Positions 1 to 28,165 of a stretch of DNA of 64,000 nucleotides are shown piece by piece. The DNA is taken from contig OZ022501.1 of NCBI GenBank assembly GCA_963989385.1, positions 85,668,979-85,732,978 of the forward strand, in the 5' to 3' direction. A program made the translations under genes and the position numbers. Each line of letters begins with the position of its first letter. The first letter of the stretch is position 1. This stretch comes from Ctena decussata (Eukaryota > Mollusca > Bivalvia > Lucinida > Lucinidae). The notes under the pieces were generated by a model that was given only the letters and a program-made list of their open reading frames with translations, ran no database searches and was not told the DNA's origin.

Positions 1-488
1 AGGGTTTATTCCGATTAAAGTAAATAGGAAACCGGGAAAACGGCATCAAGATGCCAAATCGCAAATTCTTGTGAACTGGCAAATGGCAGCTAAGGATACC
101 TGCAAACGACATCCACATGCCAAATCGTTAATTCTTGTGAACTGGCAACTGCCAGGTCATATGTCAATTCGATTTGATAGGGTATCAGACGATTAAAGCT
201 ACATAAGAAACCGGTAAACGGCAGTCATATGCCAGTTCGCTAATTCTCCTGAACTGGTAACTGGCAACGAGATGACAATTCGATTTGAGAGTGTTTCAGA
301 CATTTAAAGCCATGTAGGGAACCGGCAAACGGCAGCCAAATGCAAATTCGCTAATTTTTACGAATTGGCAACTGGCAGCCAGATGCAAATTCATTTTGAG
401 AGGGTTTATTCCGATTAAAGTAAATAGGAAACCGGGAAAACGGCATCAAGATGCCAAATCGCAAATTCTTGTGAACTGGCAAATGGCA
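1..488 (+). repeat. Recent higher-order duplication within the satellite
   Basis: Bases 1-88 are identical to 401-488, an offset of 400 bp, while neighbouring units are clearly diverged. Another multi-unit block recurs around 1235-1320, 1665-1770 and 2243-2330, marked by the rare variant AAGGCGGTAAAAGC. Unequal exchange of three- to five-unit blocks would produce this. Confidence 0.8.
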
Positions 489-3345: not shown

Positions 3346-3480
3346 CATCTGGCTGCCGTTTGCCGATACCCGACATTGTTTTAGTTGTCTTAAGACGTCG
3401 CGCACGGTATTGGGGAACAAATCAATTGGGGCTACTTTTTGCGCCTTTTGAGAATGTTAACCGCAGGGTTCGACTGTCTT
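3346..3480. other. Unique spacer at the satellite inversion point
   Basis: The orientation of the satellite flips here. Left of it units read CAGATGCC-type, right of it GGCATCTG-type. The spacer contains a CpG-bearing stretch (AAGACGTCGCGCACGG) that does not match the repeat unit. It begins just after a short head-to-head join near 3340-3365. No coding signal is visible. Confidence 0.75.
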
Positions 3481-12660: not shown

Positions 12661-12682
12661 GATCATTGTCTTATTTCTATGA
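12661..12682. mobile_element. Retroelement tail split by the Polinton (left piece)
   Basis: GATCATTG (12661-12668) recurs at 28229-28236 just after a (GAATT)n tail. 12669-12682 and 28160-28228 (less the duplicated CTATGA) together look like a 3' stub of a non-LTR element or SINE, with GATCATTG as its target duplication and the Polinton inserted inside it. Confidence 0.5.
12677..12682. repeat. Polinton target-site duplication, left (CTATGA)
   Basis: CTATGA lies immediately before the left terminus and recurs at 28160-28165 immediately after the right terminus. Six bases is the duplication length established for Polintons. Confidence 0.95.
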
Positions 12683-12721
12683 AGTAGAGTAAAAATAGGG
12701 GTTTTACAATATACTATTAAT

Positions 12722-12900
12722 AGTTAAGCCAGTACAAACCAAGACCAGGCTTAATTTCACAATATATGGTACATATGTTTTATGATTAAGCCAGTAGAGA
12801 CCAAGACCAGGCCTTATTTCAATAGTATATCGTACATATGTTTATAATTAATCCAGTACAAACCAAGACTAGGTCTAATTTCATAGTATATCGTAAATTT
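12722..12900. repeat. Three subterminal 62-bp tandem repeats, left end
   Basis: Units start near 12722, 12784 and 12846. Each has a TTAAGCCAGTA-like start, CCAAGACCAGG (third copy CCAAGACTAGG) and a TATATNGTACATATG-like block. They are mirrored at 27942-28120. Iterated sites next to a replicating, integrase-bound end suggest protein-binding sites, which is an inference. Confidence 0.8.
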
Positions 12901-12937
12901 TAAGGTTCGCGAATATGGATATCAAAATTTGAATGGA

Positions 12938-13868
12938 TTAATAAATCTCGTAAATAAGTAGAGCAACTAGTCCTACAACGACGCCCCCGACTATCAGTGC
13001 TGTTTTGTGGTTTTCATGTTCTTCAGCAACAGTTTTTGGTGTGGAACTCAGTACTGGATGTGTGTCAGGTTTTGGTATTTGATGTAGGTCAGGTTTTTTC
13101 AATGACTTTTGTGAGTCAGTCATGACATTTTTTGTGATAGCCTCATGTTTTGTTTTATATATCTTCTGTGCCTGTTTCTCGGTGGGTATCGTTATTGGCA
13201 TTCCAAGTGCTCCTATTATGGTTTTACCCTGGGCAGCTAAAGGGATTGATCCAGGTTCTACATCAACCTTTGGTTTGTGTGTTGGGGTCCCACTCACATC
13301 AGTGTAAGATGTGGCATTGGCAGGAAGGTTTACGGTTTTGTTCCACCATAACTTTTGATTATGAGTAGAGAGTACAATCTCGTTGTTGTAATTTTTTATT
13401 GTCCCGATTTGCAATTCCATATTGCTTGGAGCCATGTAAAGGCCATAGCCAAAAACATAGTCAACCTTGCTCCGGGCGTACTTCAAAGTATTTTGATAAC
13501 GGGTAATTTGACTTGGTAAGTCTATTGGCATTTGGACTCCATCTTCAACGTTTGCAAGGAATTCCTTCTGGGCATAAAAAGCTGAGCCTATCCCTAGTAT
13601 GTCAGATTTAATCTGAGACTGAGAGCCTAGAATGGCCCAACAGTAAGTCCTTATTGAGTCATTTATTCGTTCAACGCCGGGTCTTGTAAAGCCATCTGAT
13701 TTGTCGAGAATAAATGTAGTCCAGGCCTTGGGAAAACTTTGTGCAATGTAGTCAATGTGATAAACGTTATCAGGATGATTTCTTGAGAATGAATATATTT
13801 TATTATCATATTCACCTACACCTTTGACCGCCTGGTACCCAGTGTTTGTTACATACCAGTATATAGTC
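12938..13868 (-). pseudogene. TIR-borne 3' fragment of the 485-codon gene
   Basis: The minus-strand frame is open from the inner TIR edge to a stop at 12938. It encodes the same sequence as residues about 177-485 of the gene at 26447-27904, with two visible amino-acid differences (Tyr for His in the IKN-NNEIV region, Val for Ile in the terminal membrane segment). It lacks the first 176 codons, and the first in-frame ATG is only at 13531, so a product would be a 197-residue C-terminal piece ending in the membrane anchor. It is best read as a passenger of TIR expansion, not a gene. Expression cannot be excluded. Confidence 0.85.
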
Positions 13869-13890
13869 GTAAAAAGGCTTACGGCCTATT

Positions 13891-14160
13891 TAGACAACTA
13901 TATTATTTTTTAAAAGATGAAACACTGCAGACTTTGCGAACTTTTGAAAGACGAAGAATTGTTCACAAAAGGTAAAGGCGTATGCAAAAAATGTCGATCA
14001 AATCAGCAGAATATCAAAAACAAGAGGGCGCGTGCAGAGAAAAGGGTACTCAGACAAATACAAGATAATTGTGAACCAGCTGGTGTTGGCCTGTTTTGAT
14101 AGAATTTTTTGTTTTGGATTTTCTAGGTAAAAACATAGACAACTATCCTATTAGACAACT
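13891..14160 (+). promoter_or_regulatory. Repeated TAGACAACT words before the early genes
   Basis: TAGACAACTA occurs at 13891-13900, TAGACAACTA again at 14136-14145 and TTAGACAACT at 14151-14160. The copies precede the zinc-knuckle gene (start 13917) and the polymerase gene (start 14181) by 16-45 bp and are not seen before the structural genes. A shared promoter element for a replication class is a reasonable guess, but only the repetition is observed. Confidence 0.4.
13917..14099 (+). CDS. Small zinc-knuckle protein (60 aa)
   Basis: This 60-residue protein has two CxxC pairs (C4/C7 and C23/C26) spaced like a treble-clef or zinc-ribbon knuckle, followed by a lysine/arginine-rich helix (residues 27-46). 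Such small fingers are seen in front of phage endonuclease VII-like proteins and in other virus proteins, so nucleic-acid binding is likely; no catalytic residues are visible. It lies 48 bp inside the left TIR edge and 81 bp before the polymerase on the same strand, so the two may be co-expressed. The start is the first ATG, after an AT-rich leader. The function is not known. Confidence 0.6.
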   Translation: MKHCRLCELLKDEELFTKGKGVCKKCRSNQQNIKNKRARAEKRVLRQIQDNCEPAGVGLF

Positions 14161-14180
14161 GATTAGTATTAGAAAAAGAA

Positions 14181-17100
14181 ATGTCAGAACACGTTCAAAA
14201 ACTTCTTATGCTTTATGACAATGGAGTTATTGACGGTGGTGCCTTAAACAATGCATTGAAAGCATTGAACAATGCACCACAGGCGTCGCAGCCTCAAGAA
14301 AAAACCCAAGAAAAAACTCTCATAGACAAGGTGAGAGAAAAACGACGTAGAAAAAAGAAATTAAGAAAACAAAGAAAGGCAATTGCTGAGAAACAGAAAA
14401 ATGTTATAAATGAACTTAAAGAAAAAATTAAAGCTGTAGAATCGCCATTTCGGCTTGTGGACAAAACCAAATGTGGCTATCTCAGAGCGCATGAAATTTC
14501 CGTTAAACGATACAAAGACCCCATAAAAATGTTTCAAGATAAGAAAACTATTATAAAAAACAAGCTCACCGCTGAATTGCAAGAACTATCCGGTCTGAAA
14601 TGGCAATTTGGGCTTATTGTTGACTTTTTCAAGGATAAAAAGAATATACAGGGAACATTTTACAGCAATCAATATGCCACATTGTCTCCTCAAGAAATTC
14701 TCGCGTTTTACGATGAGGCAGTTTCGGCAATTGAGCAGAAAATCGAAAAATTCACTAAGGAAGGCTCAGGCTGGATGCTTGATAGATGCAATACATTGTA
14801 CCTTAACATCGCTAAATATGAGCCACTCAAGGGCTCATCATATTTTCCACTTCCTGAGGTCTTGGCTAATAAAAAGGCAATAATCAATGTGAAAAATCAA
14901 GATCAAGAATGCCTTAGATGGGCCTTAAGGTCAGCTTTATTTCCAGCTAAAAATAATCTCAACAACCCATACAGCTATCCAAAACAAGACAATTTAAACA
15001 TGGAAGGAATTGACTTTCCTACACCAGTATCACAAATTTACAAAGTAGAGAAACAAAACAATCTCGCCATCAATGTATATGGCTATGAGCAGACAGTTGT
15101 CCCATATCATATTTCTGGGCAGCCGAGTGAAATGCCACGGATCAACCTGCTGTTGCTCCATGACAAAAAAGACAATTACCATTATTGTTGGGTAAAATAC
15201 CTGTCCAGGCTGCTATACGACCAGAACAAATACAAAGGTAAAACATACTTCTGCGACCGCTGTCTCTACGGGTTTTCCCGTGAAGACCTACTAATCAGCC
15301 ACAAAGATGAATGTTACGGCATCAACGGCAGAGCAACTAAGATCGTAATGCCAGCCCCAGGGGAAAAAATAAAGTTTAAAAATTACCATAAACAGATGCA
15401 GGTGCCTTTTGTCATATATGCCGATTTTGAAAGCATAATAAAACCGCATCAAGTGGCAGCTGGGGATAAATCTGAAATCAAAAGCAAACACCAAGCATGT
15501 GGTTACGGATATCAGGTTGTTAGATATGATGGTGCATCATCTGGTGTAAGAATTTACAGAGGTGAAGACGCCGTAGAGCAGTTCTTGAAATCCCTGAAAC
15601 GGGAAGTAGTCAATATAAATAATAATGTATTTGCAAAGCCGAAGCCCCTACACATGTCGGAGAAAAATGAGAAGGATTTCCAGTCTGCAACGCAATGCTG
15701 GATCTGCCAGAAAGAATTCAACGATGAAAAAAATCCCAAAGTACGCGATCACTATAGAATCCTAGGCCACTTTAGAGCTGCTGCTCATAAACTCTGCAAC
15801 CTTAAACTTGCTATAAAACCGTGGGTAACACCCATCCCTGTTGTTTTGCACAATCTCAAAGGATATGACAGCCATTTAATCATGCAAGAGATTGATAAAA
15901 TCTCGGGCAGATTATCGTGCATTCCAAATAACACAGAAAAATACATCTCTTTCAGCGTTGGTCAACTTAAATTTCTGGACAGCTTTCAGTTTATGGCATC
16001 ATCTTTGGCAAAGTTAGTTGATGCAACTGACAAAAATGACTTTAAAATCACCCAGAAGACATTTAATCCCCAGCCAATCAAGAAAAGACTTTACGGCAGC
16101 TTTAGTTCTGAAGATAGTCGACCCATCATTCTGCGGGAGTGTGTCGACAGGCGTAAGCTAGCCTACATATTAGATCACAGCAACCAGTTTGACCTCGGCA
16201 GCAGTTTCCAGGATGGACAAAATACTGACAAGGAAACTCAGCTGAGCTTGCTTCGTAATTATCTCTCCATGTTAAACCAGAATGGAGAACGACCAATGTC
16301 ATACCGGCAGCGACATGGGTTTGGTCGATACTGGACAGCTGAAAAGCTAGGCATTCAAAATATGAGCCGGAAAATCCGTCATACAATATGCAAGGACAGC
16401 ATGTTTGACATCGACATGAAAAATGCGCACCCAACGCTACTTTCCTGGTACTGTCACAAACACGGGATAAACTGCGCAGCCCTGGATGCTTACATCAAGC
16501 ACCGTGATCCCATGTTGCAGGATATCATGAAGAACCGTGGCATCACCCGGGATGAAGCAAAAAAATTCTCTTAGCAATAATGAATGGCAAGCAAGAAAAT
16601 CTGCAGCCAGATGATCCACGGTGGTTCATCGATTATTATACTGGAATGCGCAGTATCATAAACGCTGTTGTCCAGCTTAATCCGGAGATGTATGAACATG
16701 CACAGAAAACAAAACATACAAATTACAATCTGGAAGGATCCACGATTAACCACATACTGTGCCGGTTGGAAAACAAAGCGTTGATGGCTGCTTTCGATTA
16801 CTTAAATGGAAAAGGCATCGAGGTTGCTTCTCTTATTTTTGATGGACTTATGATTTACAAGACTAATGTGTCCGATATTGCTGGTATTCTTAAAGGTTGC
16901 TCATCAAGTGTTGGCCATGTGTTAGAAGGTTGCGGCATCGAGTTCACCTTAAAAGAAATGGATGAAGGTTATGATATTCCCGGCCCAACCGGAAACCACC
17001 AGTCAACAGACATTGATATATTATTACAAAAGGGCGTTTACCCATACGAATATATGGATTCATTTGACCGGTTCCTGGAGACTCAGCTGCCGCCTATTGA

Positions 17101-18754
17101 GAAATTCCACAGCAGCCTAACAGATGAGGGTATATCCGAGAAAGATTACGAACATGCCCAGAAAGTATGGGAAACTTTCAGCTGCGAGACGCTGGGAGAT
17201 TACCATGATCTCTATCTAAAAACAGATGTGACTCTGCTGGCAGACGTATTCCAAACATTCCGTAGAACTTGTATAAATGCATACAAACTGGATCCGCTGC
17301 ATTATTATACAGCCCCCGGCTTATCCTGGGACGCTTTACTCAAATACACCGGTACTGAACTGGAGCTCCTGACTGACTACGATCAGCATCTATTCATAGA
17401 AAAAGGGATGCGTGGCGGTGTCAGCATGACTTCAAAAAGACACGCTAAGGCTAATAACCCTAGCGTGCCTGGATATAATCCAAACGAACAGCACAACCAC
17501 ATCATGTATTACGATGCAAATAATCTCTATGGCTGGGCTATGAGTCAGCCCCTACCTTATTCTGGTTTTAAATGGGTTGATAAACCGCCGCATGAACCAG
17601 GTAAGGGCTGCATCTTAGAAGTAGACCTAGAGTATCCAGCCGAGCTCCATGACTTGCATAATGACTACCCACTTGCCCCGGAGCGATTAAAAGTAAAAAA
17701 AGAATGGTTGTCTGATTACCAGTCATACCTTCTTGAAAATAACAGTATGCTCAACACCGAGAAGCTGGTCCCAAATCTCAGAGACAAAAATAAATATGTT
17801 TTGCATTACAGAAATCTGCAGCTATACCTGTCCCTCGGAATGAAACTCAAGAAAATCCACAGAATATTAGAATTCAACGAGGCGCCGTGGATGGAACCAT
17901 ATATTCGCATGAACACAGAATTCAGAAAAAAAGCCAAATCACCCTTTGAGAAAGACTTCTACAAACTCATGAACAATTCGGTATTTGGTAAAACTTGCGA
18001 AAACCTCCGGAAGCGAGTTGATATAAAAATTGTCCGAACAAATGGCGGTGATAAAGAAAAAGAGCAGATAAGAAAAATAATCGCTAAACCCAATTACAAC
18101 CGGGCTGTCATATTTTCTGATGAATTATCAGCCCTGCATACACACAAGACTCGCTTGAAACTAAACAAACCAGTATATGTTGGCATGTGTGTCTTGGACT
18201 TATCCAAGCATCTGATGTATGACTGGTATTACAATACACTGAAACAGAAGTACGGCAGAAACTGTACTTTGCTGTACACCGACACAGACAGCCTGCTGGT
18301 CGACCTAAAAACGCCAGATGTATATGCTGATATGGCAACCATGAGGACCCAGTATGACTTCTCAGATTACCCCAAGGATCACCCGCTCTATAGTGAGCAA
18401 AACAAAAAACTAATTGGAAAGTGGAAGGATGAATGTCAAGGTACCCCAATAGCTGAGTATGTCGGGCTGCGTCCCAAGATGTACTCAATTCTGCTGGCTG
18501 ATGAGCAGCTGATAAAAAAAGCAAACGGTGTTAAGAAATATGTCATCAATAAACTAATCAACTTTGCAAACTACAAAGATGCACTATTCAACCGGAAAAC
18601 ATACAGCCACGAAATGAATATGCTAAGAAGCCAAAAGCACCAGATCTACGGCCTTACAATTAACAAAACAACACTCTCGCCGCTGGACACAAAACGCTGG
18701 ATAGCCCCAGACGGCATCACGACATACGCGTTTGGGTATCAGCAGGAACAATAA
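14181..18754 (+). CDS. polB: Protein-primed DNA polymerase B, in two frames (14181-16574 and about 16565-18754)
   Basis: This replicates the element from a protein primer. First frame (797 codons): a basic, coiled N-terminus (residues 1-80), Exo I YADFES (D415, E417), a zinc/HNH-like CWIC (506-509), and Exo II with D563. Second frame (724 codons from 16580): Exo III Y212/D216, motif A YYDANNLYGWAM (D312), motif B KLMNNSVFG (462-470), motif C YTDTDS (D568, D570), KxY at 633-635. All catalytic residues are present. The frames are offset by -1; the first ends at TAG 16572-16574, just after the A-run 16559-16565. About 320 residues (16056-17015) that do not belong to the family lie between Exo II and Exo III (separate entry). 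The total of roughly 1520 codons is longer than usual for Polintons. The 3' end overlaps the convergent integrase. Confidence 0.93.
16056..17015 (+). other. Inserted palm-like (TV-Pol-like?) domain inside the polymerase exonuclease domain
   Basis: Family-typical sequence stops near residue 626 of the first frame and resumes at GVYPYEYMDSF in the second (residue about 150). The stretch between contains MSYRQRHGFGRYWTAEKLG, a motif-A-like FDIDMKNAHPTLL (D743, D745, H750, P751), a lysine helix at the frame break, and a motif-C-like SLIFDGLMIYK (D88-G89 of the second frame). D-x-D-NAHP plus FDG resembles TV-Pol, the family A-related polymerases of transposons, virophages and plasmids. That assignment is from memory of motif style and needs a profile search. 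The frame break lies within this domain. Confidence 0.6.
16559..16574 (+). promoter_or_regulatory. Candidate -1 slippery site / frame break in polB
   Basis: 16559-16565 is seven A's lying in the first frame as A AAA AAA, the canonical X XXY YYZ register. The zero-frame stop TAG follows at 16572-16574. The continuation is in the -1 frame. No strong stem is visible within 10 nt; a weak one (GATGA/TCATC with CCA/TGG) sits about 45 nt downstream. Loss of one A from the run explains it equally well. Confidence 0.45.
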
Positions 18755-19620
18755 GCAGTTCTTCTGTTACGAAACCTCTCTGCGGAGCTGGCGGCATTAA
18801 ATAATAAAACCTGATGCCCATGCAGAACAATGTGATGACTTATCTTATGAATACTGGCACTCCATATTGGGTCCGTGGCACGGCGTACGCCCCCTTCTTG
18901 TTCTCCAGGTTGATATAAATATCTTACAGTGGCATCAGGACAAATAGGGTTCCCTACAGTCCGTTTCTGTTTCACTGGAGGGGTTTTTTTCGTCTCCGCA
19001 TTTATGGCTTTGATCACTTCCGGTAATCTTTTTACCCATTCTCTGTTGCGTTTGTGCGGATTTTCCAATTCCTTCGCATACTGATAACCAAAAAGCCTTT
19101 CAGCCAGTGTCCTGTTGAACCTCTCAACCAAAGCTTGGTCACTGTGGATCTCTTTCCTGCCACGTCTGATACTTACGTTGTGTTTCGCCATCAGCTGTGT
19201 CACAGAGCCCATGAACTCCCTGCCCGGATCTACCTGTAGAAGCTTGGGAAAGTTCAGCTTTCGCTTGTAAATATTTTCAAACGCCTTCGCAACTTCTTTG
19301 CTGTCTTTTGAAGTCAGAGGCTCCGCCTCTTTATATCTGCTTTCAATATCAACGACTGTCAGCGCATATTTGTATGTCTTGCGGTTGACTGTATCATGCG
19401 GCAAAAACAACAAATCTGCCTGATGAATTTCATTTGGGGTGGACGCATCAAACCTGGGCCGTATTATTTTCTTTGGTGCGGGTAAATATATTTGCCACAC
19501 CGCCTGCTTTTTTAAAAATTCAAGCGCCTGCTTTTTACTGACTTTTGCTTCTTTTGCTAGTTTCTCTACTGCGGGGAGCCCTTTCCAGAACCCCTTTGGG
19601 CTGTAGTAAATCTTTTCCAT
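18739..19620 (-). CDS. int: Retroviral-type (DDE) integrase, C-terminus out of frame
   Basis: This inserts the element DNA and generates the 6-bp duplication. Catalytic triad: D69 (HQADLLF), D131 (QVDPGREFMG), E166 (ALVERFNRT), i.e. the usual D-D-about35-E spacing. The N-terminus (GFWKGLPAVEKLA) is the non-zinc helical domain of Polinton integrases. Family-like sequence continues through RYLYQPGE and RRATDPIWS; the last roughly 14 residues (RFRNRRTAYCSC region) are out of register. A neighbouring frame, entered at the GAGAGG run near 18772-18780, carries family-like sequence and would end at 18717. Loss of two bases from a GA repeat fits. The core is intact, so activity may persist. It is convergent with polB, overlapping its 3' end by 16 bp (38 bp in the alternative frame). 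Confidence 0.92.
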   Translation of the reverse strand: MEKIYYSPKGFWKGLPAVEKLAKEAKVSKKQALEFLKKQAVWQIYLPAPKKIIRPRFDASTPNEIHQADLLFLPHDTVNRKTYKYALTVVDIESRYKEAEPLTSKDSKEVAKAFENIYKRKLNFPKLLQVDPGREFMGSVTQLMAKHNVSIRRGRKEIHSDQALVERFNRTLAERLFGYQYAKELENPHKRNREWVKRLPEVIKAINAETKKTPPVKQKRTVGNPICPDATVRYLYQPGEQEGGVRRATDPIWSASIHKISHHIVLHGHQVLLFNAASSAERFRNRRTAYCSC

Positions 19621-19661
19621 TATTTTTTTATTCCAATTTTAAGACTAAAAAAATAATAAAT

Positions 19662-20087
19662 TTATATCAACTTATAAGCCAAAAACCCGGTTGCTGCCAT
19701 CCCCGCAACAATAAACAACAATTCACGGTTTTGCTGATCTGGGGATGGTGCATAATAATCACTCAACTTTGGCTCCTGAGGAAGTGGGTCAAGTTTTTTG
19801 CCAGTAATGTAATAGTATTGTTTCATAGCCTGATCAACATTGTCAAACGTCTGCTCAGCATGATGTTCTTTTTGTATTTCCTCATTGATAAAATCCAATC
19901 TCTGGGTTCTTTTTTTGCTCCAAGCTGCTTGAGCCGCTTCTAATTGTTCGACTGCTTTATCATGCCTTTCTCTTTCCGCCTCAGCATCGGTGTTTTTTCC
20001 CAATTTTGAGAATAAAAAATTACTTCCTGTGAACGCCAAGGCATTGACCACGGCACCTCCTAACATCATCGCTACTGCACTAGCCAT
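19662..20087 (-). CDS. Conserved Polinton small protein, two membrane segments (141 aa)
   Basis: Layout: an N-terminal small-residue hydrophobic helix (MASAVAMMLGGAVVNALAF), a long charged helical middle (about residues 30-85, rich in E, K, Q and A, probably coiled coil), a proline-rich linker, and a C-terminal hydrophobic helix (LLFIVAGMAATGFLAYKL) ending the protein. I recognise the type as recurrent in animal Polintons but know no function; a membrane-associated virion or assembly protein fits. It lies 41 bp upstream of the integrase on the same strand with an A/T-rich leader, the first of a run of four small genes read toward the integrase. No defects are visible. Confidence 0.75.
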   Translation of the reverse strand: MASAVAMMLGGAVVNALAFTGSNFLFSKLGKNTDAEAERERHDKAVEQLEAAQAAWSKKRTQRLDFINEEIQKEHHAEQTFDNVDQAMKQYYYITGKKLDPLPQEPKLSDYYAPSPDQQNRELLFIVAGMAATGFLAYKLI

Positions 20088-20122
20088 TTTGTTTATCGTG
20101 AAAAAAAAGTTTAAAACAGAAA

Positions 20123-20356
20123 TTATTTCATAATATCCGCTGGAATAATACCCTGCTTAATCAACATATCGCGTGTGGCCATCGCCAGCAGTATATCAAT
20201 AGAAAGCATTCCAATATCACCCATATTAAAATCCACTTTTGGTGCAGGTCTTCTCAAGAGTTTCTTGCCAAGTTCTGAGTACCCAACAGTGAGAAGAGTT
20301 TCTACTCCGGCGTGATAAAGCATGTTTGCAATTTGTTTACCGTCAATGGCTGCCAT
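20123..20356 (-). CDS. Conserved Polinton small protein (77 aa)
   Basis: 77 residues: an amphipathic N-terminal half (GKQIANMLYHAGVETLLTVGYSELGKKLL), a short basic proline stretch, then MGDIGMLSIDILLAMATRD with a hydrophobic helix. There is no known domain. It lies 35 bp from its downstream neighbour and 33 bp from the next gene upstream, all on the same strand, so transcription with the small-protein cluster is likely unless the AT-rich gaps (CTATATTTTCACAAAAAA before this ATG) each hold a promoter. The conserved look and tight packing make it a real gene; its role is unknown. Confidence 0.65.
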   Translation of the reverse strand: MAAIDGKQIANMLYHAGVETLLTVGYSELGKKLLRRPAPKVDFNMGDIGMLSIDILLAMATRDMLIKQGIIPADIMK

Positions 20357-20389
20357 TTTTTTGTGAAAATATAGTTTTTTTAATTTTAA

Positions 20390-20803
20390 TTATCTCATTT
20401 CAAAAGGGTCTATCGACGTTTGTATCTCAGGTATTTTAGGTTTTGATTTAGGTTGTGATTGAGGTTGTTTTATTTCAGTTTTACTGTAAATCATGTAAAT
20501 ACCAACGCCTACAGCTCCGATCATCACACAGAGCGGAATATAGTTCTTATAAACAGTCACTGTTGGTTGCCGCTCTGGTAGCTGTGGCTCTCTTGTTATT
20601 TTGATTGGTTCAGCTTCCAGGGTTTGGGCTTGTTTTTGTTTCCATCTGGCTTCAGCGCCTTTTTTACCAGCCGCGACACGTTTTTGGTTTTTTTCTTTTA
20701 GGGGTTCTTCACGTTTTTGTGGACCTTCACTTTTCTGGGGTTCACTCTGGGGTTCACTCTGGGGTTCTTGAGTTTTCTGAGCTTCCTGAATTTCCTGATT
20801 CAT
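20390..20803 (-). CDS. Basic, single-pass membrane protein (137 aa)
   Basis: The N-terminal third is low-complexity Q/E/P/K with short repeats (QSEP twice), followed by a basic patch RVAAGKKGAEARWKQKQ (about residues 43-59) that resembles the KGG-type basic motifs of stress and DNA-binding proteins. A transmembrane helix (PLCVMIGAVGVGIYMIY) follows near residue 90, with a polar tail. A basic face plus an anchor could tie DNA or capsid to a membrane, but this is conjecture. Its first 50 nt overlap the 3' end of the upstream gene in another frame, so the true start could be slightly internal. No recognised family. Confidence 0.6.
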   Translation of the reverse strand: MNQEIQEAQKTQEPQSEPQSEPQKSEGPQKREEPLKEKNQKRVAAGKKGAEARWKQKQAQTLEAEPIKITREPQLPERQPTVTVYKNYIPLCVMIGAVGVGIYMIYSKTEIKQPQSQPKSKPKIPEIQTSIDPFEMR

Positions 20804-21263
20804 TTTTTTCTATGGCATTTTTATTTTTGTTAAAATTAATATGCTTTGCAGTTGTTAGCATTGCTGTAAATGGAGCCAGGTACATCCCATACTTATAATA
20901 CAGCTCACAGCAAACGCTTGTCAGAGCATGATTGATAAATGGGTCTTCTTCTAGATCTTCTAATAACTTGGGTGGGTTTTCCACATGGAAATACTTTAAC
21001 ACCCCCATGACATATAAATTAATAAAAGAATTGCCCAACGTCTTAGTCATACTTGCACCAAGCCTGGCTTCATATCTACAGTAAAGCTTATCAACTTCTT
21101 GGGGCGTCATTTCATCTATGTCTGAGAGTTGCAACTCACGCCCTAAATATTGCCGACTTCCACCTCCGGCTATAATGGCTGAAAGTCTCACTCGTTTTGG
21201 CACATCTTGGCGTTCAGCTGGTGTATCTAGTGAAATATTTTCTAATAGATCTTCAGCGTTCAT
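20754..21263 (-). CDS. Conserved Polinton protein, RLSAI/RYEARLGA type (169 aa)
   Basis: I prefer the start at 21263 (MNAEDLLENISLD), giving 169 residues. The frame is open to an ATG at 21401 (215 residues), but the extra 46 residues are a hydrophobic leader out of keeping with the family and the AT-rich promoter-like gap lies just before 21263. Features: basic PKRVRLSAIIAGGGSRQYLGRELQLSDIDEM, helical LYCRYEARLGASMTKTLGNS, a mostly helical middle, and HALTSVCCELYYKYGMYLAPFTAMLTTAKH near the end. No named domain; a virion-associated role is a guess. It overlaps the next gene by 50 nt. Confidence 0.7.
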   Translation of the reverse strand: MNAEDLLENISLDTPAERQDVPKRVRLSAIIAGGGSRQYLGRELQLSDIDEMTPQEVDKLYCRYEARLGASMTKTLGNSFINLYVMGVLKYFHVENPPKLLEDLEEDPFINHALTSVCCELYYKYGMYLAPFTAMLTTAKHINFNKNKNAIEKNESGNSGSSENSRTPE

Positions 21264-21471
21264 TTTTATATTTTGGAAAATATATTTTAACTTAAAATAA
21301 ATGAAAAAAATCAAACATCCGACTGAGATATTAACAGCGGCAGAAGCAATTGTTATTAGTTCGAGTATCATTTTTAGTATTGCTATTTTTGTTTTAAGCA
21401 TTGCTTTTTGCTTAAAGCATTGCTATTTTTGCGCTATATTTTGCTTTAAGCATTGTTATATTTGCTTTTAG

Positions 21472-22146
21472 CTAATCCATTAACCAATACCCAGTTGGTT
21501 GGTCAGTTTTTAATATTAATTTACGGTGTTTAACCTCAGATAGTTCTTTTTTTATTTTCTGCCTTTCATCCGCAGGAACAACATCATTTTCCCTCAAGCA
21601 ATGTTCAAAACTATCTCTGTCCTTGGTGTAAAACATACAGACCCATTTTGCCTGCTCTCGAAGGTCTTTCAAGACAGAAATATATCTTTGAGAAATGACC
21701 CAGACGCTTTGCTCTGCGTGTCTGACGGAAAATGCTAGCTGTGAGAGCATGTCTTTTTTCTTTGTAAGTTCTTTTGTTGCAGAGCAGTCATCGATGATGT
21801 ACAATGTGGGTCGGCCAGCAAAATTATCAAAAAAATAACGCAGCAGTTCTTGGAGTCTTTCTGTTCCATCTGACATCACAGGATTTACTATAATTATGCT
21901 TTTGTCTTTTGGACGCCGCACGTCACCAATCCAGCTCCTGGTTTTGTAGGCCTTGTTCCACTCAATGGTGGGGCAAAGTATGACTATCTTTTCAAACACA
22001 CCTCTGTATTCTTTTTCAAGTAAATCTAGGACAAACAAACTCTTACCACGTCCCGTTTGACCCGAGATGACAGCTGAGTGTGGATATTTTGGAAACTCAA
22101 TATTTGACTTCACTAAATCTTCCATCTTCAAAATGGATTTGCGCAT
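21472..22146 (-). CDS. FtsK/HerA-type genome-packaging ATPase (224 aa)
   Basis: This is an ATP-driven motor that would pump the element DNA into capsids (A32-like family of viruses with double jelly-roll capsids). Walker A GQTGRGKS at residues 29-36, Walker B LYIIDDCS with D119/D120, and a downstream polar sensor ISQRY around residues 152-156. Length matches Polinton and virophage ATPases. The first ATG (22146) lies inside the capsid gene, overlapping it by 50 nt; M8 (22125) is an alternative start. It directly follows the major capsid gene on the same strand. All key residues are present and no breaks were seen. Confidence 0.93.
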   Translation of the reverse strand: MRKSILKMEDLVKSNIEFPKYPHSAVISGQTGRGKSLFVLDLLEKEYRGVFEKIVILCPTIEWNKAYKTRSWIGDVRRPKDKSIIIVNPVMSDGTERLQELLRYFFDNFAGRPTLYIIDDCSATKELTKKKDMLSQLAFSVRHAEQSVWVISQRYISVLKDLREQAKWVCMFYTKDRDSFEHCLRENDVVPADERQKIKKELSEVKHRKLILKTDQPTGYWLMD

Positions 22147-23362
22147 CTTGTATTATAAAAAGGTAGATATTTAAATTTTCATCTGCTCCTTGTTCTTTTT
22201 CAATTTGTTTTGTTATCCCTTCACTGGCATTTTCAATCCTTCTGCCGCTGCCGTGCAAGGTGTTGTCATCCGTGGAACGCAAGTCAAGCCATAAAGCGAA
22301 TCTTTTGGTGAGATATTTTTCAATGTTAGTGTCGCTGAAGTATAAGTCTTTTGCAACTTTATCGGTTTCTTTGTCGCGTTTGGATGTCAGCGCAAAGTAT
22401 TTATTGATTTCGTCCCACTGTTGGTACTGCCGCATGCCTTGGCTGTACAGTTGATTCGGTATGCCTTCTATTGTCATTTCAACTTTTGTGATTTTAGGAT
22501 TGTAAAAATCTTCAGTGGTTGTCCTGTCCGGGTCTTCAAACAACATTAAAATCCCCTTCATGCTTCTTGCTGGGACATTCAAGTTGATATTCCACAGAGT
22601 ATCAGACTTTTTCTTTGTGATTTTTCTGTGCCGCAAAATACGGTCATACAATATCGCCATTCTGCCACTGACCTGTTGTCTGATTGTTCGTGCAAGTTCT
22701 GAGTCGGTTACCATGTCGAATTCTAAACAGATATTGCTGATGGCATAACTGCTGTCGGCATCCGTTGAGTTGATTACTTTGTAATAGTCATTAAATGTTA
22801 ATTCATACTCTAGCCTATCACCGAGCCCGGCCTGGTAAAAGGGCATATGCGTCTCTAGCAGTTCAAAGTCCAGTGGGATGCAAAACCTGTTCTTGAAGGC
22901 GCCAGCAATGGCCTGGTCTTCAGCGTCAGCTGTTGCGTTTCCTGCCCCGACTCTGTGTTTTAACATGTTTGATTTGCCGATGCCTTGGTAGGCCATGTTT
23001 ATCCGCTCAGATGGGGATTTCCATAAGTCAACATAACAGTGAAATATGTCGCTGTCATCTATTGACATGACTTCATTGCCGCTTATTTTAATGGTTGTTT
23101 TCTTCACGATGGCTCTACCAAGATTTTGAAAGATTGTCGCATTGGGATCTTTGCTGGTCAGTTCAATAGTGAAAGCGAGACGTGCAGTTCTTGGGACGAT
23201 GACATCATTATTACTTAGATTTGGAAATCTCACAAGCAACTGCTGGTTTTGGTCGATAGTGCTGGGGTTGTTAGTGATTACTACGCTTTGTCGAATTCCT
23301 TTCGCACCAAAAGGTTCTCGTAGTTTTCTATAAGGATCCAGTTTACTTCCGTAGGCTGACAT
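22097..23362 (-). CDS. Major capsid protein, double jelly-roll (421 aa)
   Basis: The predicted main shell protein of a Polinton virion. Family-like landmarks in order: VRFPNLSNNDVIVPRTARLAF (residues about 44-64), the KTTIKISGNEV strand, CIPLDFELLETHMPFYQAGL (about 166-185), LEFDMVTDSELA, NVPARSMKGILMLFEDPD, YNPKITKVEMTIEGIPNQLY, LWLDLRSTDDNTLHGSGR (about 361-378), and the end IFIIQDAQ-type strand with SEVKY. Alternating strand-rich halves suit two jelly rolls. The gene is intact over its whole length. It starts 42 bp from the divergent 23404 gene, so the AT-rich gap probably drives both, and is followed by the packaging ATPase. Confidence 0.93.
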   Translation of the reverse strand: MSAYGSKLDPYRKLREPFGAKGIRQSVVITNNPSTIDQNQQLLVRFPNLSNNDVIVPRTARLAFTIELTSKDPNATIFQNLGRAIVKKTTIKISGNEVMSIDDSDIFHCYVDLWKSPSERINMAYQGIGKSNMLKHRVGAGNATADAEDQAIAGAFKNRFCIPLDFELLETHMPFYQAGLGDRLEYELTFNDYYKVINSTDADSSYAISNICLEFDMVTDSELARTIRQQVSGRMAILYDRILRHRKITKKKSDTLWNINLNVPARSMKGILMLFEDPDRTTTEDFYNPKITKVEMTIEGIPNQLYSQGMRQYQQWDEINKYFALTSKRDKETDKVAKDLYFSDTNIEKYLTKRFALWLDLRSTDDNTLHGSGRRIENASEGITKQIEKEQGADENLNIYLFIIQDAQIHFEDGRFSEVKY

Positions 23363-23403
23363 TTTTATTTGATAAAAATATATTTTTATTCAATAAATAA
23401 ATA
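23363..23403. promoter_or_regulatory. Bidirectional AT-rich promoter with AAAAATATATTTTT core
   Basis: The only 41 bp between two divergent ATGs contain AAAAATATATTTTT, which reads the same on both strands. Near-matches precede other structural genes: AAAATATATTTTCC before 21263, TATAAAAAATC / GATTTTTTATA between 26408 and 26447, and CTATATTTTCAC before 20356. TATA-like elements with 5' leaders under 40 nt suit viral late genes; function is inferred. Confidence 0.5.
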
Positions 23404-24740
23404 ATGGCCGAAGGTTACGATTTTGAGAATCCTACATTTGACGATGATTATGATGACGTCGATAACATAGATGACAGATTACCGATGGTGCCGGATGAAA
23501 CCGATCAGCGAATCATTTTGAATCAAAGTGGGGCAATTGATGATTTAAGGGGTGAACTCCGAAAGTCTGCAGTTGAAGACCGCAAAAAACGACTTGTTAA
23601 AACATTTTATGATGAAATAGGAAAGCGATACAAAATGGCCCCGAGCAAGATAGATTACAACCAGTTTAGGATATCAAATGATGGCAAGACACTGTTATGG
23701 AGTGTTGGTGACAAAGAAATCAGAATTACTGCAAAACAAGGTGGTGCAGAGTTTCTTTCTCTTGGTACTCTGGCAAATGAGTATAATAAGGTTGTTGGCT
23801 CAGGAGGCACATTAGCAGTGCGGCAGTATTTGAATTTACCAGATTACAGGAGTAAAACACAGCTATCTCAGCAAGTACGGCAGGCTTTGGAAAGCTCACG
23901 AAATGACATGGATCTAGAGATGTCAGGTGGCACTGAACTGCAAGATTTAACAAATACGGTAATTGGTGCAGAGACGGCCGTTAAGTCACTGGAAACATCA
24001 CTTACTGATTGGGTACACACTGACACACAAACAGAGGGTCTAACACTGCGGGAACTTCAAGGATTAGACAAGGCATTGCAACGCACCCGCGGTGAGCTTA
24101 CAAATAATTTGGCAAAACTGACCGAGCTTGATAAAGACATTGCAAAAGAAAACAGGAAATTACAAGAGGCTGAGGATGAAATCAGTAAAAATGATATAAA
24201 GGCTCGTTTAAAAATTTAGAAGATGAAAGAGCCGCAAGACTGGAGGCTGCCAGTGCAAACAAAGAAGCGTTGCGAGGTCAAATAAACAGGATAAAAGAAA
24301 CAATTGACAAAGTCTTAAAAAAAGATACGACATTGTGTGAGCGGTTGAAAACATTATTCAAAGAGCAAGGTATAACGATAGTTAGTATTTTGACGGCTCT
24401 TGGCATGATTATTGGTGTTATAGTTGAAGCTGTAATTCCAACTTCTGGAGGCGGTGGTACAACACCCAAACCAGCACAAGGTGGAGCGAAAGAATGGGTT
24501 AAAAAACAACTTCATAATCTTGCTAGACTACTTGCAAATCTTGCTGGAAAAGCGGCTGCTGCGTTGCCGGGTATAATTGGATCAATTGTGGCTTGGCTGC
24601 TGTCTGCAACCGGTAAGGTTGTAAACTGGTTTGGTAATAATCTGTGGGCTGTTGTTGTGCTTGTTGCTGGGTTGGTATATGCGGCAGCTAAAGAATGGAT
24701 TTTGAAAAAAAAAATAAGTAGGTCAACCGGAAGTGTTTAA
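23404..24740 (+). CDS. Conserved Polinton coiled-coil/membrane protein, in two frames
   Basis: First frame 23404-24219 (271 codons): an acidic N-terminus (residues 1-35), a globular part with TLLWSVGDKEIRITAKQGG, then coiled coil from about residue 180 to the end (LDKALQRTRGELTNNLAKLTELD). The second frame, -1 relative, is open through 24740 and continues the coiled coil (from about 24213), then EQGITIVSILTALGMIIGVIV (membrane helix), a Gly/Thr/Pro linker, the small-residue helical segment NLAGKAAAALPGIIGSIVAWLL and a last hydrophobic helix (LWAVVVLVAGLVYAAA). In related elements these parts form one protein, so I call one gene of roughly 445 codons with a break at 24207-24219. The second part has no nearby ATG of its own. 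Likely a membrane-active structural protein; function unproven. Confidence 0.8.
24207..24219 (+). promoter_or_regulatory. Candidate -1 slippery site / frame break (T TTA AAA)
   Basis: 24207-24213 is T TTA AAA in the zero frame, a canonical X XXY YYZ heptamer, with the zero-frame stop TAG at 24217-24219 and the family-like continuation in -1. A weak 5-bp stem (ACTGG/CCAGT) begins 25 nt downstream. A one-base loss in the A5 run gives the same picture. Confidence 0.45.
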
Positions 24741-24792
24741 TTTTGATATTTTGGTGGTGGATCATTCACAAACACAAATTTGTTGAACAAAA

Positions 24793-25368
24793 TTATGTGG
24801 CGCTTATCTTTTTTTTGATTAGCTCTAGCGCTTTGGCTTCTCCTTTGTCTATCAAAGCTTGTTTTTCTTGCTCACTCAGACCAGACTGTTTGGTGTGTGT
24901 TTTATCTTTTAAATCATTATATCTGTCCAGCTCATCAAGAACAATCTTAAATTCTTGTTCTGATATCTGTCCATCATTTAAGGCTTTGGAAATCAAATTT
25001 TTAACAGAATTCAACTTACTTTCTCCAAGAGTTTTAATCTCATAGTGCTTTTGTGCCTTTGACATTAATTTACGTCTCACCAATTTCACGCAGGCGCCCA
25101 TGCATCCGCAGACAATTGCAACAATTTCTAAAGGCAGCATCACTGGCACTGCCAGGCCTATCCCAGCCATAACGACACTTGCAGAAATCAATGCAGTATC
25201 AACGCCGTCTGTGAGGTTGACTCCGCGTTTATATTTTTTATATAAAGCCTTTCTAACATCTTTTTCTCTTATTAATTGCTTTTCTATTTCTGATAGTTTT
25301 TGTAAGCGATAATTTTGCCCATCTTCAGTAGGCAACTCTGGATAAATTGGAGCCGTCGGCTGTTTCAT
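24793..25368 (-). CDS. Conserved Polinton membrane protein (191 aa)
   Basis: The N-terminal third is charged and helical (NYRLQKLSEIEKQLIREKD, then ALYKKYKRGVNLTDGVDTAL). A broad hydrophobic region (residues about 62-93, VVMAGIGLAVPVMLPLEIVAIVCGCMGAC) makes one or two membrane helices. A basic stretch and a polar helical C-terminus (SKLNSVKNLISKALNDGQISEQEFKIVLDEL) follow. The type recurs in animal Polintons; no biochemical role is known to me. Its 3' end faces the 23404-24740 gene across 52 bp, and its start is 3 bp from the stop of the fibre-like gene upstream. Intact. Confidence 0.75.
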   Translation of the reverse strand: MKQPTAPIYPELPTEDGQNYRLQKLSEIEKQLIREKDVRKALYKKYKRGVNLTDGVDTALISASVVMAGIGLAVPVMLPLEIVAIVCGCMGACVKLVRRKLMSKAQKHYEIKTLGESKLNSVKNLISKALNDGQISEQEFKIVLDELDRYNDLKDKTHTKQSGLSEQEKQALIDKGEAKALELIKKKISAT

Positions 25369-25371
25369 TTT

Positions 25372-25746
25372 TTATTGTTTTTTATTTTTTTCCAAATTAT
25401 TAATACGTTTATTAAACTCGTTTAGTAAATTCGTTATGGTCGGCAACCTCGATGTAATATAGGCTTGATTTACTGCATCATCAGGATTAACAGGACTCGC
25501 AAGACCAGAAATTCGATGCTGGGTCATATCTAATCTGCCGTTCATGACATTATCAGTATGACGTTGTAACACTTCATGTAACAAATGTTTTCTAAAATCA
25601 TTTAAAGCCTTTGCTGTTACCACGTCACCGCCAAACGCCGCATTTTCATCTGGGTCTCGAGGGTAAGCTACATTGACTATGCGTTTACCATCCATATTTA
25701 GAGTTGTTTCTAAAACATCTTCTCTCTGTTTTCCAAAGATGCTCAT
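25372..25746 (-). CDS. Fibre- or stalk-like protein (124 aa)
   Basis: Two copies of a repeat typical of trimeric tail-fibre and adhesin stalks: LNMDGKRIVNVAYPRDPDEN with a following GGDVVTAKAL (residues about 16-48), and LDMTQHRISGLASPVNPDDA with AVNQAYITSRL (about 72-101). The pattern is L-[DN]-M-x(3)-R-I-x-[NG]-[VL]-A-x-P. A short helical end (LLNEFNKRINNLEKN) may trimerise. By analogy with phage fibres it could be a vertex spike or receptor-contacting protein, and it sits directly beside the minor capsid (penton) gene. This assignment comes from the repeat pattern and is an inference. The frame is intact. Confidence 0.6.
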   Translation of the reverse strand: MSIFGKQREDVLETTLNMDGKRIVNVAYPRDPDENAAFGGDVVTAKALNDFRKHLLHEVLQRHTDNVMNGRLDMTQHRISGLASPVNPDDAVNQAYITSRLPTITNLLNEFNKRINNLEKNKKQ

Positions 25747-25764
25747 TATTATAAAAAATGAAAA

Positions 25765-26408
25765 TTAAATTATTTCTAAAACACAACTCATGGGCAAACC
25801 ATGATTGTCTACCGTGTTTTTATTTTCATCTTTAACAACTAGTTTCAATTCAGATAAGGCCCCCGTCTTTAACGGCTTGAGTTCTGGGTGTTCAAAGCGT
25901 ACAGTCACAATATCACCAAAGCTTTTATTTTCAATGGGAATGACTGCTAATACATCACTCGGTGAGCCATTAAAGTAATTATATGATAAATTTATTTCCG
26001 ACAAATGAACATACAAAGATTTTATAACAGCAAAGTCCAGCGGCTTTTCACCTTGATAAATGTTTTTTGGAAAAAACGGCCTTTAATCTGGAGTCCAAGC
26101 ATTGTCTTGAGTCTTTTGCTTATTTTTAACTCAATAGGTGTAGTCAAAGTCACTATTCCGTTGGTTTCATCTACAGACATACTGATTTTATGGCTGCGAA
26201 ATATATCTGCTAACTGCTGAAAACTATAATACCCAGGCGTTATGCGAACAGGAGTCTCGCCTTGTTTTTGAATGACTTCATTATGAACATTATACCAACC
26301 CAAACAGTATGTAAAACTGTTTAATCCCACCCGCTTGAATCCATCTCTGTTGTCAATATACTGTTGCAGGATTACAGGATTGCTCATATCAGAAATTATG
26401 AGATGCAT
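25765..26408 (-). CDS. Minor (penton) capsid protein, broken into two frames
   Basis: First frame 26022-26408 (128 codons): MHLIISDMSNPVILQQYIDN, GWYNVHNEVI, TPGYYSFQQLADIF and GIVTLTTPIELKISK match the N-terminal half of Polinton single jelly-roll penton proteins. The second frame (open to 25765; its first ATG is at 26016) carries the C-terminal half: LSYNYFNGSPSDVLAVIP, FGDIVTVRFEHPEL and DNHGLPMSCVLEI. The match changes frame in the stretch around 26040-26050, where one base appears to have been lost; there is no canonical slippery heptamer. The gene would be about 214 codons. As it stands it yields only a truncated product. It diverges from the 485-codon gene across a 38-bp AT-rich gap. 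Confidence 0.88.
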
Positions 26409-26446
26409 TTTTTTATTTGATAATATAAAAAATCATTGTTATAAAA
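26409..26446. promoter_or_regulatory. Bidirectional AT-rich gap between penton and 485-codon genes
   Basis: 38 bp separate divergent starts at 26408 (-) and 26447 (+). The minus strand reads ATTATCAAATAAAAAA before the ATG, matching TTATCAAATAAAA before the major capsid ATG. The shared ATCAAATAAAA leader next to both capsid starts supports co-regulation. Confidence 0.45.
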
Positions 26447-27904
26447 ATGGTGCAAATCAAAGCATTTTCGTACAACCCCAACGCACAATATCAACCATCT
26501 GGAGTTTACAACACAAAAAACCTAGACATCATTAACCAAACAATAGAAGTCAAACAGGCCTCAGACAGTCCAAGCGGCTTTGATGTGAAATTCCCTGACA
26601 TCTTCGCAAAATACGTGCTGCCCTACGTTGAAAGTGATGCCATCGTACAAAATTGGCGTTCACGCCAAATGCAGTTTTGGCAAAACCAGATAAATTTTGC
26701 TTTGTGGTGCGCAACTACAGGATGCGGCGTTTCCATGCAGGACCACCTGACAGGCACTATTCCACTGTTTGCACGTTCATTGTTTTTGTTTCATGTGTAT
26801 TATCAAACGCGAAGAATATTATTCGAAATGAAAGTGGCATTACCAACAGATGACAGCTGGAATGCGTTTGACAACAGTTATGACAAGAAGGCCTATGAGA
26901 GGATCTGTGACGAGTTTGGAGTCTCAGTTCATACCGACTGGAGGCAAAACCAAGATGACAATGGCGGATTAGGGACTATATACTGGTATGTAACAAACAC
27001 TGGGTGTCAGGCGGTCAAAGGTGTAGGTGAATATGATAATAAAATATATTCATTCTCAAGAAATCATCCTGATAACGTTTATCACATTGACTACATTGCA
27101 CAAAGTTTTCCCAAGGCCTGGACTACATTTATTCTTGACAAATCAGATGGCTTTACAAGACCCGGCGTTGAACGAATAAATGACTCAATAAGGACTTACT
27201 GTTGGGCCATTCTAGGCTCTCAGTCTCAGATTAAATCTGACATACTAGGGATAGGCTCAGCTTTTGATGCCCAGAAGGAATTCCTTGCAAACGTTGAAGA
27301 TGGAGTCCAAATGCCAATAGACTTACCAAGTCAAATTACCCGTTATCAAAATACTTTGAAGTACGCCCGGAGCAAGGTTGACTATGTTTTTGGCTATGGC
27401 CTTTACATGGCTCCAAGCAATATGGAATTGCAAATCGGGACAATAAAAAATCACAACAACGAGATTGTACTCTCTACTCATAATCAAAAGTTATGGTGGA
27501 ACAAAACCGTAAACCTTCCAGCCAATGCCACATCTTACACTGATGTGAGTGGGACCCCAACACACAAACCAAAGGTTGATGTAGAACCTGGATCAATCCC
27601 TTTAGCTGCCCAGGGTAAAACCATAATAGGAGCACTTGGAATGCCAATAACGATACCCACCGAGAAACAGGCACAGAAGATATATAAAACAAAACATGAG
27701 GCTATCACAAAAAATGTCATGACTGACTCACAAAAGTCATTGAAAAAACCTGACCTACATCAAATACCAAAACCTGACACACATCCAGTACTGAGTTCCA
27801 CACCAAAAACTGTTGCTGAAGAACATGAAAACCACAAAACAGCACTGATAGTCGGGGGCATCGTTGTAGGACTAGTTGCTCTACTTATTTACGAGATTTA
27901 TTAA
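26447..27904 (+). CDS. Conserved large Polinton protein with C-terminal membrane anchor (485 aa)
   Basis: A full-length copy of the gene whose 3' part lies in both TIRs. The N-terminal 140 residues (aromatic/polar, PDIFAKYVLPYVESDAIVQNW, SLFLFHVYYQTRRIL) and a central domain (AYERICDEFGVSVHTDWR, TTFILDKSDGFTRPGVERINDSIRTYCWAILGSQ, FDAQKEFLANVEDG) are strongly conserved in style across Polintons. A Pro/Lys-rich spacer of about 100 residues leads to a single membrane helix (ALIVGGIVVGLVALLIYEIY) at the very C-terminus. Function is unknown to me; a virion surface or membrane-associated protein fits. The inner TIR boundary (26974) falls at codon 176-177. It is intact and is the rightmost gene. 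Confidence 0.8.
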   Translation: MVQIKAFSYNPNAQYQPSGVYNTKNLDIINQTIEVKQASDSPSGFDVKFPDIFAKYVLPYVESDAIVQNWRSRQMQFWQNQINFALWCATTGCGVSMQDHLTGTIPLFARSLFLFHVYYQTRRILFEMKVALPTDDSWNAFDNSYDKKAYERICDEFGVSVHTDWRQNQDDNGGLGTIYWYVTNTGCQAVKGVGEYDNKIYSFSRNHPDNVYHIDYIAQSFPKAWTTFILDKSDGFTRPGVERINDSIRTYCWAILGSQSQIKSDILGIGSAFDAQKEFLANVEDGVQMPIDLPSQITRYQNTLKYARSKVDYVFGYGLYMAPSNMELQIGTIKNHNNEIVLSTHNQKLWWNKTVNLPANATSYTDVSGTPTHKPKVDVEPGSIPLAAQGKTIIGALGMPITIPTEKQAQKIYKTKHEAITKNVMTDSQKSLKKPDLHQIPKPDTHPVLSSTPKTVAEEHENHKTALIVGGIVVGLVALLIYEIY

Positions 27905-28159
27905 TCCATTCAAATTTTGATATCCATATTCGCGAACCTTAAAAATTACGATATACTATGAAATTAGACCTAGTCTTGGTTTGTACTGGATTAATTATAA
28001 ACATATGTACGATATACTATTGAAATAAGGCCTGGTCTTGGTCTCTACTGGCTTAATCATAAAACATATGTACCATATATTGTGAAATTAAGCCTGGTCT
28101 TGGTTTGTACTGGCTTAACTATTAATAGTATATTGTAAAACCCCTATTTTTACTCTACT
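26974..28159. repeat. Polinton right terminal inverted repeat (1186 bp)
   Basis: Reverse complement of 12683-13868, ending CCCCTATTTTTACTCTACT. Subterminal 62-bp repeats lie at 27942-28120. It contains codons from about 177 onward of the 485-codon gene plus 255 bp of non-coding DNA. Confidence 0.96.
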
Positions 28160-28165
28160 CTATGA
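28160..28165. repeat. Polinton target-site duplication, right (CTATGA)
   Basis: An exact copy of 12677-12682, abutting the right terminus. Confidence 0.95.

Follow-up and report, generated by a model that had tools for sequence, protein, structure and literature searches.

What lies between the Exo II and Exo III motifs of the DNA polymerase encoded by a Polinton of the clam Ctena decussata? The 64,000-nucleotide stretch analysed here (contig OZ022501.1, positions 85,668,979 to 85,732,978 of the forward strand; hereafter the window) contains such an element, and its protein-primed family B DNA polymerase (pPolB) carries between these two exonuclease motifs a segment that does not belong to polymerases of this kind (PolBs). 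A sequence-only reading had suggested that the segment is a palm-like domain, TV-Pol-like or primase-type, acquired by this one element. We conclude that it is probably a TV-Pol domain, that is a minimal family A polymerase, set in the exonuclease loop of a Polinton pPolB, so that an unbroken gene would give one chain with two polymerase sites. This conclusion draws on insertion at the same site in several PolBs, homology to TV-Pols, models of relatives that show a family A fold, conservation of catalytic residues, selection, and exchange of the domain as a unit.

Domain organisation of the polymerase gene

The gene lies on two open reading frames (ORFs), with the PolB motifs placed by motif position.

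14181..16574, + strand: first open frame of the pPolB gene (ORF1), 797 aa, ending at TAG
15417..15434, + strand: PolB Exo I, YADFES
15858..15875, + strand: PolB Exo II, KGYDSH (D563 of ORF1)
16065..17014, + strand: insert relative to PolBs without it, from junction sequences and the spacing of profile matches
16098..16979, + strand: TV-Pol / family A polymerase core, edges approximate, transferred from residues 281-566 of the relative P0011
16404..16442, + strand: TV-Pol motif A, FDIDMKNAHPTLL (D743 and D745 of ORF1)
16548..16562, + strand: TV-Pol fingers motif RDEAK (RxxxK; R790 and K794 of ORF1)
16580..18754, + strand: second open frame of the pPolB gene (ORF2), 724 aa
16829..16861, + strand: TV-Pol motif C, SLIFDGLMIYK (D88 of ORF2, codon 16841-16843)
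17213..17230, + strand: PolB Exo III, YLKTDV (Y212/D216 of ORF2)
17507..17524, + strand: PolB palm motif A, YYDANN
17963..17980, + strand: PolB palm motif B, KLMNNS
18275..18292, + strand: PolB palm motif C, YTDTDS

ORF1 holds the N-terminal region, Exo I, Exo II and the first half of the insert, and gives weak zinc-finger-like and endonuclease-VII-like matches, the Endonuclease_7 match lying upstream of the insert. ORF2 holds the second half, Exo III and the three palm motifs. The two are one gene whose frame is broken within the insert, since database relatives read through the break and 35 of 50 host loci have a single frame there. Both frames, and the residues D563 (motif at 15858) and Y212/D216 (motif at 17213), are as the sequence-only reading had given them. 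Its remark that both catalytic sets are intact holds for the residues, all six PolB motifs being kept in the window copy, but not for that copy's reading frame. In structure, the model of P0011 matches phi29 polymerase best. The Pfam family DNA_pol_B_2 is precomputed for many of the listed PolBs, a few insert-bearing ones included (P0009, P0016, P0020); in a Pfam scan it gave no match to P0011 or P0026 at E 0.5 or better.

The insert begins just past ITQKTF, which ends at 16064, and stops just ahead of ILLQKGVYPYEY, which starts at 17018. It is about 315 residues long, close to the 320 foreign residues previously placed at 16056-17015. PolBs without it have a short Exo II-Exo III loop, exemplified at the same site by ITKSQFGDKTDLLLRKGVYPYEY in P0032.

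Identity of the inserted domain

By sequence searches the insert is homologous to helicase-linked TV-Pol proteins, and most of the relatives found outside PolBs are fused to a helicase. In P0022, P0023, P0153, P0155 and L062 the TV-Pol precedes a PF19263 or PF08706 domain, which we take to be S3H/D5 helicase domains (S3H, superfamily 3 helicase).

The catalytic motifs agree with this assignment. In P0011 the equivalent of window residue D745 aligns with T7 D475, and those of R790 and K794 with T7 R518 and K522. In an alignment of 43 proteins the D-x-D of motif A and the lysine of the fingers motif are invariant and the aspartate of motif C is at least 90% conserved; the fingers arginine is replaced by lysine in some helicase-linked relatives. 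A further motif, GRY, has an invariant glycine and an arginine conserved to at least 90%, and is kept in 49 of 50 host loci. Strands flank it on both sides in the predicted model, and its arginine would correspond to the conserved β-hairpin arginine of Iyer's TV-Pol. The model starts with helices, which may correspond to the two-helix antiparallel thumb of a TV-Pol. Each residue looked at is retained in 48-49 of the 50 host loci. FDIDMKNAHPTLL and SLIFDGLMIYK, noted earlier in an order resembling motifs A, B and C, are both there, and the 'lysine-rich helix' between them probably corresponds to the part that contains the fingers motif RDEAK.

Structure prediction adds that the inserts of two relatives, as modelled by AlphaFold, match family A polymerases. 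In two VIA-align comparisons, every listed row except phi29 polymerase was family A. Foldseek run on the whole first model gave 48 family B and 2 family A polymerases among 50 listed entries, and on the second model family A alone among the entries listed. A polymerase fold is therefore present, as the proposal of a palm-like domain anticipated, but it comprises a whole minimal polymerase core and not a palm alone. Likewise, of the two identities offered, homology, models and motifs favour TV-Pol/family A, and the structural matches to family A speak against a primase of the archaeo-eukaryotic (AEP) type. The insert combines family A core homology, the two palm aspartates, the fingers RxxxK and the putative hairpin arginine, which together mark a TV-Pol. 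An unbroken protein would accordingly carry one proofreading site and two active sites for polymerisation, each of another family, and the nested domain is likely to be catalytically active; the 'dual polymerase' activity suggested before stays a prediction.

Other searches returned little. In the inserts of P0011, P0026 and the window no Pfam model reached the cut-off (a match to RFXA_RFXANK_bdg under the cut-off overlaps the start of the insert in P0011), PHROGs gave nothing better than E 0.24, and a sequence search of solved structures with each half gave chance matches only (best E 0.3 and 0.44). A profile of alignment A2 compared with solved structures matched four origin-binding proteins, certain members through their helicase part and, by chance, one other entry. 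A viral collection yielded no relative to single proteins and, with the alignment, three loci, of which two are opposite ends of a single contig; no relative was found in a prokaryote genome collection. A tree of the insert gave no resolved branching of PolB-borne versus helicase-borne domains.

Distribution among family B polymerases

The insert is not a general feature of Polinton PolBs. The search with PolB, of whose 6,722 matches the best 120 were listed, provided 114 further proteins, a sample that for this reason leans towards close relatives, and 107 of these lack the insert. Together with 25 proteins found using the insert itself, the remaining seven make 32 of 139 proteins in which the insert was matched, against 107 in which it was not. 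In 90 of the 107 the gap between exonuclease and PolB matches is 4-21 residues; in the other 17 the matches stop early or there is a short insert of a different kind. In four proteins without TV-Pol (P0033, P0036, P0038, P0068) a cysteine-rich insert about 50 residues long occupies the Exo II-III site, and the loop may be an insertion hot spot.

When the two halves were searched apart, each in its own frame, relatives were matched among 51 (first half) and 52 (second half) of 160 proteins. Exonuclease, insert and PolB matches occur together in 13 of the 160, so that, judged by sequence, the nested arrangement is also present in related elements of other genomes. The longest of these proteins, P0026 (1,538 aa), P0039 (1,644 aa) and P0057 (1,559 aa), share 47-67% of their residues with P0011 over the stretch that aligns best, which indicates that the arrangement is old. 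The idea of an acquisition by this single element has to be given up, the feature being old and shared among relatives. On the PolB tree the 11 insert-bearing rows require five changes, at least four of them by well-supported branches. P0030, with the insert, and P0033, with the cysteine-rich one, share 93% identity across 413 residues of PolB, and 72% within the exonuclease part. P0037 lacks the domain and has apparent remains of both linker stubs (by eye), which suggests that it has lost it.

The nearest named database matches come from Mytilus coruscus (P0014) and from a Thiodiazotropha metagenome-assembled genome (P0012); Thiodiazotropha is a symbiont of lucinid clams. P0014, whose source name is MAM domain-containing protein, is a gene model with a MAM and a TV-Pol domain, and has possibly absorbed a Polinton fragment. 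P0154 (1693 aa) has a TV-Pol domain at residues 586-879 of a different, weakly matching PolB, upstream of the apparent Exo I (read by eye) and not between Exo II and III; it is possibly an independent second fusion of A with B. The 41.7-kb contig IMGVR_UViG_3300033571_024423 (L062, L063) has identical first and last 10,837 bases in opposite orientation, including the TV-Pol-helicase gene, and these are either very long terminal repeats or a palindromic assembly.

Copies in the host genome

Searching the 1.66-Gb host genome with the first half of the insert gave 112 matches, among which some copies appear as two pieces; open frames of at least 1,529 residues occur at six of the matches. Fifty loci were studied further, 30 as the best matches and 20 picked for divergence or frame length, and they are thus not a random sample. 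The frame across the insert is single in 35, has the window's offset in 9 and another offset in 6. Copies with an offset fail to group together on two DNA trees, each of which needs 4 changes, compared with 4.2-4.3 with shuffled labels. A programmed frameshift at the break is therefore disfavoured, and repeated decay at a homopolymer explains the offsets more simply.

Purifying selection on the insert is seen in comparison with three strongly diverged copies, L031, L033 and L034, where the ratio of nonsynonymous to synonymous change (pN/pS) in the insert is 0.15-0.22. Synonymous sites have changed at 64-78% in the insert and 17-25% in the flanks, L031 having no PolB palm to compare. L031 itself has its diverged TV-Pol in a 731-residue open frame, with no PolB match in the 1,555 bases downstream.

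The TV-Pol of L033 and L034 is about 74% identical to that of the window, with values of about 68-76% across most of 16000-17000. Identity is 73-86% in the two borders (15900-16000 and 17000-17200) and mostly 88-98% further out, except at 15500, where it falls to 78-81%; L034 has no match to the window before about 15400. This drop over the insert and its borders indicates that a TV-Pol cassette with short PolB flanks has been replaced by recombination in these copies.

Possible function of the nested domain

A role in starting strands may well explain the arrangement: by analogy with known TV-Pols, the nested domain would be a primase-polymerase that starts strands on the displaced single strand or restarts stalled synthesis. 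Protein-primed synthesis by the PolB would displace a single strand, the TV-Pol would start or restart DNA strands on it, and these would be handed over to the PolB part, which would extend and proofread them. The staphylococcal TV-Pol CcPol extends primers alone and makes de novo primers with its partner MP, according to the available text of PMC7581432 and PMC10061031. More broadly, and more tentatively, we propose a two-headed replicase, in which a family A primase-polymerase within the proofreading domain of a pPolB would give two routes to strand start and would be exchanged between Polintons as a cassette.

Several observations weigh against a working TV-Pol in the window's polymerase, or against its priming. 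The window copy cannot make the whole protein from one frame, as other copies can. Profile comparison with nine phage family A polymerases was weak (P 0.047; controls 0.54 and 0.41), and its alignment ended before motif C in the local form and misregistered motif C in the global form. Published TV-Pols are often fused to a helicase or encoded beside one (PMC2579912 and the accessible part of PMC4642659), and a Pfam scan of 15 ORFs of the element found no helicase at cut-off. CcPol only extends primers when alone and needs MP (PMC10061031, available text). Two host loci are PolBs without the insert, L051 with a 1,228-residue open frame, so that the domain is not essential to every such element. 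Finally, pN/pS among 44 young copies is 0.35 and 0.46 in the insert halves and 0.25 in both flanks, and against L032, L035 and L036, which are 93-97% identical to the window in the insert, it is 0.32-0.62 in the insert and 0.11-0.26 in the flanks. These values indicate that the insert has been less constrained in recent times, or that copies decay once they have inserted.

The main rival to a strand-starting role is a primer-dependent second polymerase, an active family A enzyme that only elongates (gap filling, help with strand displacement, lesion bypass) and leaves initiation to the terminal protein. The behaviour of CcPol without its partner and the retained catalytic residues would suit it, but TV-Pols sit with D5-like helicases where primases otherwise occur, which is the published argument for priming (PMC2579912), and the prevalence of helicase fusions among the non-PolB relatives points the same way; we regard it as rather unlikely. 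Less probable still is a recombining cassette with small benefit to the element, kept by its spread among PolB genes in the manner of an intein or homing element. It would account for the patchy distribution on the PolB tree, for the closeness of P0030 and P0033, for the divergent TV-Pols between similar flanks in L033 and L034 and for the weaker constraint in younger copies. Against it, the conserved catalytic residues and the low pN/pS towards the diverged copies indicate selection on enzyme function, Pfam scans found no intein or Hint family in the insert and none was among the 25 families shown, out of 38, in further annotation, the Endonuclease_7 match lies outside it, and the exchange in L033 and L034 takes in some PolB flank, as ordinary recombination does.

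A non-catalytic clamp or DNA-binding module could guide DNA from its place in the exonuclease domain, and yet the aspartates of motif A and the lysine of the fingers do not vary in the 43-protein alignment and nearly all host loci keep each residue looked at, which makes this reading distinctly improbable. The D-x-D spacing resembles that of other palms, and the sequence-only reading had left room for primases; an AEP primase, a reverse-transcriptase-type palm or a second PolB palm is nonetheless highly improbable given the family A rows of VIA-align, phi29 polymerase apart, and a control with a PolB-palm profile that did not match. An assembly or gene-model artefact, which the split of the window copy over two frames might suggest, is refuted by independent copies, namely the 112 genome matches, several in long continuous frames, and the 13 database proteins with the same three parts.

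Comparison with known systems

TV-Pols were described by Iyer, Abhiman and Aravind in 2008 (PMC2579912) as stand-alone proteins, after an N-terminal helical domain, or ahead of a D5-like helicase, and were said never to be linked to nuclease domains. The window domain shares with them the minimal family A core, the two palm aspartates, the fingers RxxxK and an occurrence in mobile elements and small DNA viruses; it differs in sitting inside a different polymerase's nuclease domain, where Exo II and Exo III flank it, with no helicase at cut-off. The PolA(TVpol)-S3H fusions of virophages and polinton-like viruses (PMC4642659 and PMC12220804, as far as accessible) have the same polymerase domain family, with a helicase partner and no PolB where the window has a PolB and no helicase domain at cut-off. 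The accessible part of PMC11071308 gives the order of the polinton pPolB as TP-vOTU-EXO-PALM and lists PolA-S3H, AEP-S3H and pPolB-S1H fusions. The window agrees with that pPolB in Exo I-III, palm motifs A-C, a phi29-like model of a relative, an rve integrase, terminal inverted repeats (TIRs) and a 6-bp duplication, and departs from it in the extra polymerase nested in EXO. Large replication proteins that join PolB to further replication enzymes are known from a polinton-like virus of Oxyrrhis marina (helicase SF1-pPolB; PMC12721341) and from a lactococcal phage (helicase-AEP-PolB replicase GP55; PMC12205980); their partners are a helicase or an AEP primase, and no family A polymerase or nesting is evident in the available text of either.

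No description of a family A polymerase nested in a family B one was found in the literature searched, which was largely without subscription papers; the parts are known and, as far as that literature shows, the arrangement is new. In the texts available, the replication systems of A and B type found in virophages, polinton-like viruses and Polintons are described as mutually replacing alternatives; the nested arrangement implies that the two can merge in one enzyme. Whether elements that are protein-primed start strands internally as well becomes a testable question. Such a domain can escape routine annotation, since no Pfam model reached the cut-off in the three inserts scanned and DNA_pol_B_2 failed to match P0011 and P0026.

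The surrounding element

The remaining features of the Polinton are as follows.

12677..12682, no strand: left target-site duplication CTATGA, 6 bp
12683..28159, no strand: Polinton element from TIR end to TIR end, defined by inverted arms and CTATGA on both sides
12683-13868 and 26974-28159, inverted: TIR arms, 1186 nt, 99% complementary
18739..19620, - strand: rve-type integrase (PF00665, E 9.9e-9)
21472..22146, - strand: A32-like packaging ATPase (PF04665, E 3.9e-7)
22097..23362, - strand: candidate major capsid protein, weak (PF16903 Capsid_N, E 0.006, under cut-off)
28160..28165, no strand: right target-site duplication CTATGA, 6 bp

The element has the hallmarks of a Polinton/Maverick: a pPolB with exonuclease and palm motifs, an rve integrase, long TIRs and a short target duplication. 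The packaging ATPase is matched as well, with the capsid match staying under the cut-off. Of the 15 ORFs scanned, the A32-like ATPase is the only one with helicase-named Pfam matches, all under the cut-off (the best HerA-like, E 0.0098). A 485-residue gene at 26447-27904 ends inside the TIR, so that its C-terminal part is duplicated in the other arm as a second ORF at 12938-13531. Outside the element, window positions 1-6185 hold diverged repeat units of about 111-118 bp in a long array, which keep a single orientation up to about 3300 and are reversed after about 3480, so that large imperfect inverted repeats are formed.
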